Assembly (NCBI GenBank): GCA_937858455.1
Contig: CALLYN010000291.1
Coordinates: 1-11,671 of the forward strand
Direction: 5' to 3'
From: an uncultured Kouleothrix sp.
GTDB lineage: Bacteria > Chloroflexota > Chloroflexia > Chloroflexales > Roseiflexaceae
Length of the DNA stretch: 11,671 nucleotides
Shown here: positions 1,310 to 9,976 of the stretch, piece after piece
How the letters are laid out: each line of letters starts with the position of its first letter
Position numbering within the stretch: the stretch's first letter is position 1
Made by a program: the position numbers and the translations under genes
The notes under the pieces: generated by a model
What the model saw: the letters and a program-made list of their open reading frames with translations, nothing else
The model's database searches: none
What the model was told of the DNA's origin: nothing

Positions 1310-1942
1310 CTATGGCAGCGCGTTATAGTCGAGCGGGTTGACGTTCACGCCGTCTTTCCACACCTGGTAGTCGAGGTGCGGCCCGCTTGCCTCGCCCGTC
1401 GAGCCGACGTAGCCGATCACGTCGCCGCGCTTGACCGTCTGCCCGTCCTGGATGGCAAAGTCTTTCAGGTGCGAGTAGCCGGTTTTGAAGTGGATGCCCT
1501 CGAGCCAGATATGATTGCCGGCCGGCCAAGTGTCGCGCGCGAGGTGCACCACGCCGTCGTGGGTGGCGTACACGGGTGTGCCGAGGGTGCCATCGGGATC
1601 GGCCTGGCCGTCGTGATTGCCATCGATCGCCAGGTCGATCGCGCCCCAGATATTGGCCGGCGCGTGTGAGCCAACGCCGTAGCCCTGCGTCATCACAGTG
1701 TTTGGCAGGCCAAGCGGGTTGATTGAGGGAAGGTCGGTGTCGGGCACGCCGCGGCCGGTGAGCGGCGCTGCCTCGCCGGTGATGCCCTGCGTGCGCGCGC
1801 CGGCCGCGCCGCCGGCGTTCCACGCGCTGATGCGCGCTGCGCCCGGCCGGGTCTGCAGCAGGAGGTAGGCGAGCCCAACCAGCGCGAGTATGAATATGAC
1901 TTTGCGCAGGCCGCCCGCGGCGGCCCAGCCATCGTTGATCAA
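1310..1942 (-). CDS. Membrane-anchored LytM/M23-family protein with altered zinc site (210 aa)
   Basis: M23 proteins cut peptide cross-links in peptidoglycan; degenerate members activate other wall hydrolases. A short cytoplasmic end and one membrane segment (about 13-30) are followed by a linker and a LytM domain (about 85-205). WGAIDLAI (99-106) stands where HxxxD normally lies, giving Trp99 for the first zinc His with Asp103 kept. YSHL (157-160) keeps a catalytic-type His158. GPHLDYQ (187-193) replaces HxH with His189-Leu-Asp191. Two of three canonical zinc ligands are therefore changed. An EF-hand-like DGNHDG loop (107-112) is inserted. I chose TTG at 1942: it has GGGAG (1950-1954) 7 bases upstream and overlaps the preceding stop as TTGA, like the ATGA overlap upstream in this operon. 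GTG at 1963 would add 7 residues but has no ribosome site. It is the last gene of the operon. Confidence 0.82.
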   Translation of the reverse strand: MINDGWAAAGGLRKVIFILALVGLAYLLLQTRPGAARISAWNAGGAAGARTQGITGEAAPLTGRGVPDTDLPSINPLGLPNTVMTQGYGVGSHAPANIWGAIDLAIDGNHDGQADPDGTLGTPVYATHDGVVHLARDTWPAGNHIWLEGIHFKTGYSHLKDFAIQDGQTVKRGDVIGYVGSTGEASGPHLDYQVWKDGVNVNPLDYNALP

Positions 1943-2973
1943 CGCACCACTCCCTGGCGCCACGCATTCGCGAGATCGACCACCGTGGCAACGTAGTTGC
2001 CGACATCATTCTCAAATGAGGGCGCGTAGATTGGAATAATCTGCTCGATGGTTGCGGTGCCGCGATTGCCTACATACTCAGTGGCAATCAGCTTATACCA
2101 ATCTTCAATGCCCTCATCCCAACTGGCGTAGTCGCGGAAGCGGCCGAAGCAAGTGGCGTAGCCGGCGCAGATGATATTGCCGACATTATGGGTGCTGCCG
2201 CCGCCCGGCTTCAGGCCAGCCCAGCCGGGGTTGGTGCCGGCGCTCGACTCGTGGATGAAAAACGCCAGCGCGTAGGCAGGGTCGATGCCATAGCGCTGGC
2301 CCATCTCGACCCAGATCGCGCCTGTGCCCTGCGCCGGCGAGCCATAGTGCGCCAGCACCTGGTCGATGAACTGGGCGCTGATGCTTGGCGTGCCGAGTAG
2401 CGAGTGCTCGCCGGCAGGAATAGCAGCCTGGCTGGCCTGAAACACCTGCGATAGCGAGTCGGCGGCAGCGGCGGCAGGCCCGCCGTTAAAGCCGCTGATG
2501 ATTGTCTTTGGCGTGGCCGAGGCAAACCAGATAATCAGCACGCTGACGAGCGCGACGATGATCAGCAGCCAGGGCCGGCTGCGGATGAACGCGCCGGGCG
2601 GCTCGTACGTGGCCTGGTAGGGCCGCCGCATCGCCATGCCTTGCGCCTGCGAGGTGGTGTGCTGCAGATCGGCCACGCGCTGCGGCAGCGAGCGCGGCGC
2701 CGGGGCGTCGGCATGATCGCGCTCACCTGGCGCGGCCAGCTGCGGCGTCACAAGCCGCTGCAGCGGTGCCGGCTGGCGTGGCGCGGTGCGAACGACCGGC
2801 GCGGCCTGGCGTGGCCCGATCTCGTGCAGATCCTCGAACAGATCGCGCGTTTTATCTATTGGCCTGGGCGCCTGCGGAAGTTCGTCGTGGCGAACTTCAA
2901 ACATCGGCGCGCGCTGCGACGCCTGCCTGGGCCGATCGGCCGGCTTCTGGCGCCGCTGTGCGTCTGCGCTCAT
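1939..2973 (-). CDS. Membrane-anchored glucosaminidase/lysozyme-like peptidoglycan hydrolase (344 aa)
   Basis: This resembles the mannosyl-glycoprotein endo-beta-N-acetylglucosaminidase (Pfam Glucosaminidase) fold, which cuts the glycan strands of peptidoglycan. Residues 1-130 are a basic, Pro/Gln/Arg-rich, probably disordered cytoplasmic segment. One membrane segment follows at about 134-150, then an Ala-rich linker, then the extracytoplasmic catalytic domain (about 200-340). GIDPAYALAFFIHESSAGT (229-247) carries the expected catalytic glutamate, Glu242. NVGNI and a Cys269/Cys275 pair follow; these cysteines could form a disulfide outside the cell. The ATG overlaps the upstream stop as ATGA (2970-2973), with AAAGGGA 8 bases before it. 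The long basic cytoplasmic tail is unusual for a plain autolysin and could bind a partner. Exact bond specificity is not determined. Confidence 0.8.
   Translation of the reverse strand: MSADAQRRQKPADRPRQASQRAPMFEVRHDELPQAPRPIDKTRDLFEDLHEIGPRQAAPVVRTAPRQPAPLQRLVTPQLAAPGERDHADAPAPRSLPQRVADLQHTTSQAQGMAMRRPYQATYEPPGAFIRSRPWLLIIVALVSVLIIWFASATPKTIISGFNGGPAAAAADSLSQVFQASQAAIPAGEHSLLGTPSISAQFIDQVLAHYGSPAQGTGAIWVEMGQRYGIDPAYALAFFIHESSAGTNPGWAGLKPGGGSTHNVGNIICAGYATCFGRFRDYASWDEGIEDWYKLIATEYVGNRGTATIEQIIPIYAPSFENDVGNYVATVVDLANAWRQGVVR
1950..1954 (-). promoter_or_regulatory. Ribosome site deciding the TTG start of the LytM gene
   Basis: GGGAG on the minus strand lies 7 bases before TTG (1942-1940), inside the end of the glucosaminidase gene. 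The TTG overlaps that gene's TGA stop as TTGA, implying translational coupling. The upstream GTG at 1963 lacks any such motif. Confidence 0.5.
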
Positions 2974-3497
2974 CGCGCGTTCCCTTTTGCCAGCCGCGCC
3001 TGCTCGGCGGCGGTTGGCAGACGAAACACACCATCTTTGTTCAGGTAAACCACCTGCTCGTTGCGCACATCCAGCAGCAGATCGACATTGCCGTCGTTGT
3101 CCATATCGCGCAGCTCAAGCGCCAGCGGCGTCAGGTCTTCGTCGGCGCCAAACAGGTATGGGCCACTGATCGTTCGGGCGTTGGCCGGGTTGCCGCCTGG
3201 CAGCTCGATGATCATGGCCTGGCGGTTTAAATTTACGGCGATCAGGTGTGTTGGTTGGCCGCTGGCCTCGTCGTGGCCCACGAATGCGTCGAGCTGCACG
3301 GTGCGCGGCCGGCCGTAGCGCACGTCGTCGATCAGCACCTGCGCCTTGCCCAGCAGTAGGCTCACGAGCACGTAGATTGCCACCGCCGCGAGCAGCAGCG
3401 TCGCAAGGTATACGGTGCTATACATCCGCCGCGGCAGCCCATTCGCTAGCGCCTGCGCCTGAATATTCGAGCGCAGCGTCTTCTGTGTCACGGCCAT
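2970..3497 (-). CDS. Single-pass membrane protein with a calcium-type DxDxDGxxD loop (175 aa)
   Basis: I do not recognise a characterised family. The protein has a basic cytoplasmic N-terminus, one membrane segment (about 28-49) and an exposed domain of about 125 residues. DMDNDGNVD (131-139) is the calcium-binding loop found in FG-GAP/VCBS repeats, and the surrounding LALELRD...LLLDVRN pattern is one such blade-like repeat. The frame stays open to 3635, but the operon promoter lies at 3607-3635, so an upstream start could not be on the transcript. ATG at 3497 has GAGGAG (3508-3513) 10 bases upstream. It is the first gene of the operon and overlaps the glucosaminidase gene by 4 bases, so all three products probably act together at the membrane. 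A scaffold or sensor role is only a guess. Confidence 0.75.
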   Translation of the reverse strand: MAVTQKTLRSNIQAQALANGLPRRMYSTVYLATLLLAAVAIYVLVSLLLGKAQVLIDDVRYGRPRTVQLDAFVGHDEASGQPTHLIAVNLNRQAMIIELPGGNPANARTISGPYLFGADEDLTPLALELRDMDNDGNVDLLLDVRNEQVVYLNKDGVFRLPTAAEQARLAKGNAR

Positions 3498-3606: not shown

Positions 3607-3635
3607 ATTATAATAGAACATATGTTCTGTGTCAA
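3607..3635 (-). promoter_or_regulatory. Consensus promoter of the three-gene wall operon
   Basis: On the minus strand TTGACA (3635-3630) and TATAAT (3612-3607), both exact consensus, are separated by exactly 17 bases. Transcription would begin near 3600, leaving a leader of about 100 bases before the ATG at 3497. The spacer is almost entirely occupied by a perfect palindrome. A promoter this strong with an operator in its spacer is typical of a gene that is silent until a repressor leaves. Confidence 0.85.
3615..3628. promoter_or_regulatory. LexA/SOS-box-like operator AGAACATATGTTCT
   Basis: This is a perfect 14-base palindrome lying between the -35 and -10 boxes. Its core GAAC-ATAT-GTTC is the Gram-positive LexA box core (B. 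subtilis consensus CGAACRNRYGTTYC); only the outermost base on each side differs. Its position would block RNA polymerase directly. Assigning it to LexA is inference: lexA is not in the window, and another dimeric repressor could recognise the same sequence. Confidence 0.6.
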
Positions 3636-3778: not shown

Positions 3779-4708
3779 TCACAGCGCCACTTCTGCCGAA
3801 TGCTGCGCCAGGGCCGGGTGCAGCTGTGTTGCGGCCAGCCACGCCTCGATGGCCGCGACCGGCAGGATGCCCTTTTCGGTCACGATCCCCGAGAGCAGCT
3901 CAAGCGGCGTGAAGTCGAACGGCAGGTCGCCGAGCTCAAGCTGGTACGCCTCGACGGCATCGCCATTATTGGCCCAGCTGATCGAGCGATTGCCGGGGCG
4001 GAAGCCGGGCGGCAGGAATTTTTCGCTGCCGCACAGCGTATAGAACGGCGTGCCGGCCGTGTGTGCCGCCAGCGCCATCGGCGCGGTGCCAACTTTATTG
4101 ATCAGGCCGCGGTGCGTCAGCATATCGGCGCCGACCAGTACCAAGTCGGCATGCTCTACGGCCGCGAGCGCCGATTCGTCGTCGAGCAGGATCGCCGCCA
4201 CGCCGCAGCTCCGCAGCACCGTGGCGGTGTCGCGGCCCTCGCGGCCCGGCTGCGACTCGGCGCAGAGCACTTCGAGCCGCCGGCCGGCACGCTGCGCGTG
4301 GATCAGTGCGTGCTGAATAGTGCTGCTGAACGACAGCGTGACGATCTGGCTGCCTTCGTCGATCAGGCCAAGCGTTCCTTCGGCCACGTGCAGCGCGTGC
4401 TGCTGGATCTGGCGCTTGAACTCCTCGGTGGTTTGCTCGACGGCGCGGCTGAGGCTGCGCGGCGAGTCGCCCTGCTCCATGCGCCAAAGCACCGCGTTCA
4501 CCAGGTTCACCAGTGGCGCCATCACCATCTGCGCGCGAATCAGCGCCCGGCCGATCGCCAGAATCTCGTGGCGAAACGCATCGGCCGAGGGCGCCTGGCC
4601 GCTGGCTGCGCGCTGCAGCAGAATGTTCGCGGCGCGCTCGGCGATCTGGGCGGCGCCTGAGCGATTGTCGGCGGCAATCTCGGCAATCGCCTTGAAAGTT
4701 GGTTCCAC
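3779..4708 (-). CDS. Initiation factor 2B (eIF2B alpha/beta/delta) family protein (309 aa)
   Basis: The family includes eIF2B regulatory subunits, methylthioribose-1-phosphate isomerase (MtnA) and archaeal ribose-1,5-bisphosphate isomerase. The helical N-terminal half (about 1-110) leads to a Rossmann-like C-terminal half. Family signatures are TLSFSSTI (124-131), ESQPGREGRD (151-160), LVGADMLTHRGLINKVGT (191-208) and FDFTPLELLSGIVTEKGIL (264-282). The SFSST stretch has no cysteine where the isomerases carry their catalytic Cys, so an isomerase role is doubtful; the protein looks closer to the eIF2B-like group. A sugar-phosphate or nucleotide-binding regulatory role is possible but unproven. 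The frame is open to an ATG at 4843, but GTG at 4708 has a full GGGAGGAG 8 bases upstream and matches the usual family length. It stands alone, with 200 bases to the kinase gene upstream. Confidence 0.8.
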   Translation of the reverse strand: MEPTFKAIAEIAADNRSGAAQIAERAANILLQRAASGQAPSADAFRHEILAIGRALIRAQMVMAPLVNLVNAVLWRMEQGDSPRSLSRAVEQTTEEFKRQIQQHALHVAEGTLGLIDEGSQIVTLSFSSTIQHALIHAQRAGRRLEVLCAESQPGREGRDTATVLRSCGVAAILLDDESALAAVEHADLVLVGADMLTHRGLINKVGTAPMALAAHTAGTPFYTLCGSEKFLPPGFRPGNRSISWANNGDAVEAYQLELGDLPFDFTPLELLSGIVTEKGILPVAAIEAWLAATQLHPALAQHSAEVAL

Positions 4709-4716
4709 GGCTTGAT

Positions 4717-4724
4717 CTCCTCCC
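4717..4724 (-). promoter_or_regulatory. Ribosome site deciding the GTG start of the IF-2B-family gene
   Basis: GGGAGGAG on the minus strand, 8 bases before GTG at 4708, is the strongest Shine-Dalgarno sequence in the window. It argues against the longer open frame from 4843, whose extra 45 residues have no family-like character. Confidence 0.7.
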
Positions 4725-4908
4725 GGCCGCACCCAATCGGCGCGCACCGAGTGTGGACCACGCATAATGCTTCGTTGCGCGCGTAGTGTGGCTTCTCCGA
4801 CGCTGTGTCGTAGCGGGAAATGCGAATCGTCAAACGCTGACATGGCGAACCGGCGCTTTCCGGTGGGCTAGCAGGCGTACTTCATTGGACGATCTGTGCG
4901 GGCGTACA

Positions 4909-8864: not shown

Positions 8865-8911
8865 CCAGGAGCCAGGCGCCGCAATCAGGCGGCGCCTGGC
8901 TCCTGGTTTTT
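8865..8911 (+). terminator. Strong intrinsic terminator of htrA-type gene, 18-bp perfect stem
   Basis: An 18-bp perfect stem (8865-8882 with 8889-8906) and a 6-base loop AATCAG are followed by TTTTT (8907-8911) and CGTTT. It lies 22 bases after the protease stop. On the minus strand it is followed by a weaker TTTCTTT tail, so it can serve both converging genes. The TGA stop of the HIT/GalT-like gene sits inside the loop, so its 3' arm is translated as that gene's last codons. Confidence 0.93.
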
Positions 8912-9976
8912 CGTTTGCAGCGCAGCGGCAACCTCGAATGGATCGGTCGAGATGACATTCGCGGCGAACAGCTCCATTGCGCCTACGTCGTTGCGGTTGG
9001 TCAGCGGGTTGCCGCGGTCGCCGATGCGCGCCATCGCCGGCACGCCGCTCCAATCTTCGGCTGTGGCGGCGAGGGGCGGCAGCGCGATCGCCAGGTTGAA
9101 TGCGCGCAGCCCCTGCTCGTCGATCAGCCGGCGCACCAGCGCGGCCAGTGGCGCGATCAGCTGCTCGGCGGTGTCGGCGCAGAGCAGCAGCTCGCCATTG
9201 CGCATTGGCGTGAGGTGCGCGAGGATGTGCGCGTTGTCGTGGCGGATCGACAAGCCCAGCGCATCGTGCAGCGCCGCGAGGTCGGCGAAGAAGGGCGCGC
9301 CAGTGGCGGCGCGGTAGCTTTCGGCGGCGCGGCGCCAGCACTCGACGCGCGCGAAATGCATGCCGCGCGTCAGCGCCACCTGCATATGGCCGTGCATCAT
9401 GGTGGCGCCGCTCTTCGGCAGGCAGTTCCAGATGATCAGCGGGTAGACTGCGGCCGGGTCGTGGGCGTGGGCGGCGGCGATCCAGCGCAGCGCCACGTCG
9501 ATGAAGTCGGCGATCTGGGCTGGGCCAGGGCGCAGCGGGTGCGGGTCGTCGAAGATCACCAGGCCGTGCCAGCCGTCGTACTTGGCCACGTTCGAGGCGC
9601 TCACGCAGAACCTGCCGCGGATGCGCCCAAACACATCGGCGGTGGTGTCGCGCTCGGGGTAGGCGAAAATATCGTGCTCGGCCAGCTCGTGGGCGATCCA
9701 GCGCTCGATCGCCTCGTCTTCGGCCGCGCCGGTGTGCGGGCGGTGCGCGCGCACCGGGTTGAACAGCGCAGTTTCGAGCGTCAGGCGATTGGTGACCTTG
9801 ACGACCAGCTGCTCGCGAATCTGGGCGACGTCGCCGAAATGCTCGATGATCCAGGGCTCCATCGCCGGCGGTGGGACGGCCTGGCTGCGCATTACCACAA
9901 CGTGGTACATGCGCTCGGCAATGGCGCGTAGGGCCGGCGGCAGCGCGGCGATCTGTTCGTGGATGGTCGCGATCAT
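8885..9976 (-). CDS. HIT/GalT-like nucleotidyltransferase-family protein (363 aa)
   Basis: This looks like the HIT superfamily branch that includes galactose-1-phosphate uridylyltransferase and Ap4A phosphorylase. PKSGATMMHGHMQ (187-199) gives a His195-x-His197-x-Gln199 motif, the nucleotide-transfer active site of that branch, preceded by SNVAKYDGWHGLVIFDDP (128-145). The paired-cysteine zinc motifs of classical GalT are absent. A second region (about 305-345) carries PPLAATAEDWSGVP and RIGDRGNPLTNRND. The length is near that of GalT. The open frame extends to 10087, but ATG at 9976 fits a -10-like box ending 7 bases upstream and no ribosome site, as in leaderless mRNAs. The last codons overlap the bidirectional terminator. 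The substrate is unknown: sugar phosphate or dinucleoside polyphosphate are the likely options. Confidence 0.75.
   Translation of the reverse strand: MIATIHEQIAALPPALRAIAERMYHVVVMRSQAVPPPAMEPWIIEHFGDVAQIREQLVVKVTNRLTLETALFNPVRAHRPHTGAAEDEAIERWIAHELAEHDIFAYPERDTTADVFGRIRGRFCVSASNVAKYDGWHGLVIFDDPHPLRPGPAQIADFIDVALRWIAAAHAHDPAAVYPLIIWNCLPKSGATMMHGHMQVALTRGMHFARVECWRRAAESYRAATGAPFFADLAALHDALGLSIRHDNAHILAHLTPMRNGELLLCADTAEQLIAPLAALVRRLIDEQGLRAFNLAIALPPLAATAEDWSGVPAMARIGDRGNPLTNRNDVGAMELFAANVISTDPFEVAAALQTKNQEPGAA

Follow-up and report, generated by a model that had tools for sequence, protein, structure and literature searches.

The window, an 11,671-nt stretch of DNA from an uncultured Kouleothrix sp. 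considered here at its full length, carries three overlapping genes behind a consensus promoter whose spacer is filled by a palindrome, and this arrangement as a whole is very likely best explained as a LexA-repressed SOS operon of membrane-anchored wall proteins in Chloroflexales. On the strength of sequence conservation, LexA almost certainly represses the operon and the SOS response induces it, and we have good confidence that its products form a wall-facing set acting on peptidoglycan. Its purpose, a checkpoint on septation or separation, is proposed tentatively and falls just short of an even chance.

Direct reading of the minus strand (3635..3607) bore out the exact TTGACA-N17-TATAAT promoter with a palindrome-filled spacer described in an earlier, sequence-only reading, and the three wall-related genes placed behind it there, a calcium-loop membrane protein, a glucosaminidase-like hydrolase and a LytM protein, were found in the sequence and with Pfam (Table 1). 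The palindrome AGAACATATGTTCT (3628..3615) is perfect over 14 bp and its GAAC-N4-GTTC box lies in the register -35, 2 nt, box, 3 nt, -10, with the start of gene 1 approximately 110 nt downstream of the -10 hexamer. An Rfam scan of the window at gathering score returned no RNA element. The box occurs once in the window versus 0.07 copies expected, with at least one copy in 13 of 200 shuffles. Across the host assembly (5.14 Mb, 1123 contigs, 71.5% complete, the window being contig C291) the palindrome is not enriched genome-wide, at 24 copies versus 59 of a backwards-read control pattern, and its weight therefore rests on position and conservation.

Table 1. Features of the promoter and of the three-gene operon in the window.
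Feature	Position	Strand	Basis or remarks
Promoter TTGACA-N17-TATAAT	3607..3635	-	direct sequence reading
-35 TTGACA	3635..3630	-	direct reading
Spacer, 17 nt	3629..3613	-	direct reading
-10 TATAAT	3612..3607	-	direct reading
LexA-type operator AGAACATATGTTCT (predicted), within promoter spacer	3615..3628		sequence and conservation at orthologues
12-nt box GAACATATGTTC (GAAC-N4-GTTC) in spacer	3627..3616		
Gene 1, one-helix membrane protein (predicted)	2970..3497	-	AF2 helix 20-61; FG-GAP/VCBS-like beta ectodomain; DxDxDG Ca-type loop
Gene 2, GH73-like glucosaminidase (predicted)	1939..2973	-	~130-residue N-terminal tail; helix 134-152; ectodomain ~186-344
Gene 3, M23/LytM protein (predicted)	1310..1963	-	N-terminal hydrophobic stretch (by reading); altered metal site; DGNHDGQADPDG loop

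Homologues of gene 1 are present in 77 of the 82 genomes of the order, often as two copies, one before genes 2 and 3 and one alone. Of 131 gene-1 loci, 55 have a gene-2 match downstream and were counted as operon loci, 71 were placed among the others and 5 were left as unclear; this division leaves out six weaker gene-1 matches, and loci with a missing downstream part may be misclassed in it. The operon loci represent 55 genomes from 27 genera, and gene 3 comes next in 49 of the 53 that have a gene-3 match or at least 2 kb downstream. The operon is widespread in Chloroflexales and probably ancestral there. Exact GAAC-N4-GTTC was found within 300 nt upstream at 46/55 operon loci, covering 22 of the 27 genera and ranking first among the 256 possible 4-N4-4 palindromes (next, 6), and at 30/71 of the other loci, where it again ranks first of 256 (next, 7). 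When one mismatch is allowed, these counts rise to 50/55 (next palindrome, 24) and, by a smaller margin, to 55/71 in the stand-alone set (next, 40). The N4 centres vary (ATAT, ACAT, TTTT, AAAA, GTGC and more), so it is the half-sites that are kept and not the entire string. Orthologous operons of the order thus retain the palindrome, as a check put forward with the sequence-only reading had asked. That the palindrome arose by chance inside a strong promoter would fit its genome-wide rarity relative to the control pattern, but with its presence at 46 of 55 operon loci and their differing centres the probability of this is virtually nil, and we consider chance ruled out by conservation at orthologous operons.

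The position of the box is conserved as well. Among loci with an exact box, it lies within a promoter-like spacer at 39/46 in the operon set and 22/30 in the other set, as compared to 76 of 1100 random positions in operon regions, and the very register of the window recurs in 31/55 operon loci, all of them among the 46 that carry the exact palindrome. A 29-nt register pattern, with up to 5 mismatches permitted over 20 positions, matched 36/55 operon loci (1/1100 shuffles), 39/71 other gene-1 loci (1/1420), 8/30 lexA loci (1/600) and 6/30 recA loci (2/600); this pattern misses spacers of 16 or 18 nt, and the host lexA promoter has 6 mismatches on it. Eight operon loci carry two exact boxes. The exact box is absent at nine of the 55, among which a degenerate box was read between the hexamers at L043, L047, L049, L073 and L143, and no box at all was seen on reading at L055, L068, L099 and L106 (4/55). 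An IF-2B-like gene (3779-4843 in the window) sits beside the operon and also adjoins gene 1 in 14 of the 55 operon loci; at L099 and L106 it runs up to gene 1. Elsewhere in the window, a 363-aa frame on the minus strand (8888-9976) has no Pfam match at E 0.001.

Across the class, gene 1 was found in 84/158 genomes, and in 7/76 outside the order. At the nine loci from these seven genomes gene 2 follows in 9/9, and no gene-3 match was obtained in the stretches covered. Within 400 nt, two of the nine carry an exact box (L257, L259) and two more a one-mismatch box (L253, L258). From this pattern the gene 1-gene 2 pair seems older than both the place of gene 3 and the strict box.

The host encodes LexA. 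It has one LexA_DNA_bind match (E 2.3e-18), and its LexA contains TAG and GHSM motifs, which we take to be LexA features, and can be aligned over its length to LexA proteins of known structure (best 3k2z, 1.6e-32); one full RecA was found (8.7e-136), a second match falling below cut-off. The host lexA promoter reads TTGACA-A-GAACAGGTGTTT-TTG-TATAAT, a one-mismatch box in a 16-nt spacer with a layout near that of the window, whilst the host recA promoter holds AAACACTTGTTC, plus GAACGTTCGTGC ahead of TATAAT. Inspection of the host genome at lexA and recA, which had been suggested together with the LexA-box assignment, found a site of the same kind at both promoters, although over the recA and lexA loci compared below most sites are inexact variants; along with the palindrome conserved in the order, these promoter sites support the predicted LexA box. 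Besides the window's own, 19 of the 24 exact host sites were viewed in gene context (L016-L033; C90, C312, C368 and C476 were left out). They lie ahead of a gene-1 paralogue (L016:2509, TTGACT-N17-TATACT), recN (TIGR00634, 527 bits), sbcD (TIGR00619, 151 bits), a VOC-family gene (L024) and short unassigned frames at L022 and L026; several further sites, inside open frames, are probably there by chance. A host sigma-70 gene (L029:842) has an exact GAAC-N4-GTTC approximately 290 nt upstream.

We compared the upstream regions of recA, lexA and recN across the matched genomes (77 with lexA, 74 with recA, 77 with recN and 35 with a control gene, the E1 dehydrogenase gene of the window), examining 30 loci of each with a matrix built from 54 operon boxes. 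Median best-site scores were 9.1 for recA, 10.0 for lexA, -3.4 for recN and -5.7 for the control (n = 30 each); the 71 stand-alone gene-1 loci reached 15.0. Against the control, recA (p = 2e-11), lexA (1e-11) and recN (0.03) differ, p-values that treat related genomes as independent and are optimistic because of that relatedness. The exact palindrome lies within 300 nt upstream of recA in 0/30 loci and of lexA in 4/30. Within one mismatch it reaches 19/30 at recA, where GCAC-N4-GTGC does better (30/30), and 18/30 at lexA, where the AACA palindrome comes first (21/30). GAAC-N4-GTGC stands immediately ahead of TATAAT in 18 of the 30 recA loci; the variants upstream of lexA are GCAC-N4-GTTT or GAAC-N4-GTTT. 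As a conserved SOS target recN was rejected, with an exact box at 1/30 loci, namely the host's own, and the low matrix median given above.

Readings that invoke another regulator keep some weight, as the sites at recA and lexA depart from the operon box and match it less well, a real difference. Under such a reading, a repressor other than LexA but with a similar site would own the box, and the operon would serve wall homeostasis outside SOS, which would agree with the prevalence of variants at recA and lexA and with recN not being a conserved target. Against it, the host lexA promoter has nearly the same layout, the operon-box matrix picks out both recA and lexA against the control gene, and GAAC-N4-GTTC is the LexA motif described for B. 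subtilis and extended to Gram-positives in the background section of PMC3323433. We consider a different repressor highly improbable, and LexA remains the preferred regulator.

Two side observations concern these loci. Split RecA matches were obtained in G016 (L328:812-1831) and G037 (L329:814-1833), and also in G004, G021 and G023; the in-frame insert of G016 and G037 matches LAGLIDADG_2 (1e-21), that of G016 also Intein_splicing, weakly, and from these matches both are probable inteins. In G006, G008, G009, G011, G012 and G013, recN is found within a few hundred bases of the stand-alone gene-1 paralogue, the two genes being on opposite strands, and a box between the pair could act on either.

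The three genes form a compact unit. The gene 1 stop and gene 2 start overlap as ATGA and genes 2 and 3 overlap by 25 bp, so their translation is probably coupled; at two loci, genes 2 and 3 are fused into one 587-aa frame. The calcium loop ascribed to gene 1 is present as DMDNDGNVD. Neither Pfam (hmmscan, E 0.001) nor Foldseek (E <=0.001) gave a match for gene 1, and VIA-align rows mixed integrins with small lectins, a lysozyme inhibitor and other propellers, which limits the claim to a blade-type fold. In gene 2, the helix at 134-152 is taken as transmembrane, and both a glucosaminidase fold and the catalytic Glu were found, E242 being kept in 54/54. Its Pfam Glucosaminidase match (PF01832) scores 26.1 bits for the window protein, below the cut-off of 30.2, and the domain is carried by 94 of the 120 gene-2 homologues listed out of 707; a sequence search for solved relatives gave E 0.18 at best. 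Gene 3 matches Peptidase_M23 (PF01551) at 81.6 bits (cut-off 28.7). By hmmscan against Pfam (E 0.001), no LysM domain was detected, the only domains being Glucosaminidase in gene 2 and M23 in gene 3. A defence system was rejected, as PADLOC had no match for any of the three proteins at E 0.001, and so was a phage origin, as PHROGs were matched by gene 3 only, via its M23 domain, and by neither gene 1 nor gene 2.

The altered zinc site noted earlier in gene 3 holds across 46 homologues, and the canonical M23 ligands His, Asp, His are not found in this protein. The expected first ligand is Trp in 46/46 when aligned at WG-A/G-I/V-DLA (another alignment places that part otherwise), and the third is Asp in 35/46, including the window protein, and His in 11/46. 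Residues 108 and 198 co-vary, as A108/D198 in 35 and G108/H198 in 11 of the 46, which hints at two versions of the changed metal site. H165, H196 and D110 are present in 46/46 and H100 in 45/46. As neither of the two catalytic-type His residues varies, the metal site may have been rebuilt and need not be dead, and H100 could act as a replacement ligand. For gene 3 only, and compatibly with SOS control, the protein might instead be a dead LytM regulator of the EnvC/NlpD kind whose sole job is to activate gene 2: the invariant Trp and the frequent Asp, also present in the window, would suit such a role, whilst the invariance of H165, H196 and D110, the near-invariant H100 and the third His kept in 11 homologues speak against it. 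We regard a dead regulator as less likely than not.

Under the preferred LexA-repressed SOS operon, LexA bound to the palindrome, between the two promoter hexamers, would block RNA polymerase; upon DNA damage, RecA-stimulated cleavage of LexA would open the promoter, and the three overlapping genes would yield membrane-anchored proteins with their working domains toward the wall. The gene 2 glucosaminidase would cut glycan strands, and gene 3, with its altered and perhaps rebuilt metal site, would cut or regulate peptide cross-links or its partner. The small bitopic protein of gene 1, with its putative half-propeller, would probably be an adaptor or septal effector, and the stand-alone paralogue, also boxed, suggests that it is able to act alone. 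These proteins may delay septation or filament-cell separation during DNA repair, by cutting back or redirecting wall synthesis close to the membrane.

Two wall-hydrolase domains behind a single SOS-type promoter, and the matches of the gene 3 domain, which include phage endolysin families (phrog_6700, 2.4e-18), could also point to SOS-run lysis or cell sacrifice, in which both hydrolases open badly damaged cells, so that their content is released or the filament breaks where cells have died. Both enzymes look membrane-anchored, however, no holin-like gene was seen within the three-gene unit and genes 1 and 2 have no PHROG match; moreover, the M23 domain of gene 3 also matches division and shape hydrolases, and gene 1, in 77/82 genomes of the order, is a better fit to housekeeping than to suicide. 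Lysis is thus an unlikely purpose, and we favour a division checkpoint or remodelling role over a lysis module. We also hold it decidedly unlikely that a dedicated damage-triggered wall machine, made up of a propeller-type membrane adaptor, the glucosaminidase and a LytM protein with a rebuilt metal site, isolates or severs the damaged cell from its filament, an SOS decision taken at the level of the multicellular filament and going beyond a division pause.

According to PMC13396833 and PMC3989709, wall or division proteins under SOS control occur in Bacillus, Staphylococcus, mycobacteria and Caulobacter, and each of these uses a small protein of its own; PMC13396833 presents small membrane proteins that halt late septal wall synthesis as a widespread SOS solution, and PMC3989709 covers ChiZ and DivS. 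The 2012 study (PMC3323433) omitted Chloroflexales for having no defined LexA motif or too few genomes. Among the matches listed for open PMC, a coverage that excludes subscription journals, no title or abstract start concerned the Chloroflexales LexA regulon or this operon, and none of the matches listed, which cover part of the literature, described an SOS operon of such composition. The operon points to a connection, so far undescribed, of DNA damage with wall remodelling in filamentous Chloroflexales, and gives candidates for a DNA-damage checkpoint, a testable LexA motif for Chloroflexales and a LytM protein whose metal site is altered in an unusual and conserved way.

Known systems resemble parts of this operon. 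The M23 domain is shared with the LytM/M23 division factors EnvC, NlpD, DipM and ShyA, from which gene 3 differs by Trp where the first ligand is expected, by Asp or His in third position and by an inserted Ca-type loop; it matches the DipM, ShyA and NlpD models far under their cut-offs. Gene 2 is set apart from LytB, SagB and autolysin-type GH73 glucosaminidases by its own long N-terminal tail and helix, and we know of no such enzyme that is SOS-regulated. The SOS division inhibitors YneA, ChiZ, SidA and SosA were compared with the operon by topology and control only. ChiZ/Rv2719c, the DNA-damage-induced wall hydrolase and division inhibitor of mycobacteria, is likewise damage-linked and at the membrane, but is a LysM protein, whereas here GH73-like and M23 proteins share one operon. 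YneA of Bacillus subtilis, SOS-induced, with a TM segment and LysM and blocking FtsW, is likewise small and bitopic with a wall-facing domain and the same type of box; gene 1 has a putative FG-GAP-like half-propeller and no LysM, and is followed by two hydrolases; the likeness to YneA lies in topology and control. Gene 1 shares its topology with the SOS septation blockers and has a boxed stand-alone paralogue, and the hydrolases encoded alongside look membrane-anchored. Taken together, this is a multi-enzyme wall set behind a recurrent operator-promoter layout, which differs from the known single small SOS proteins.
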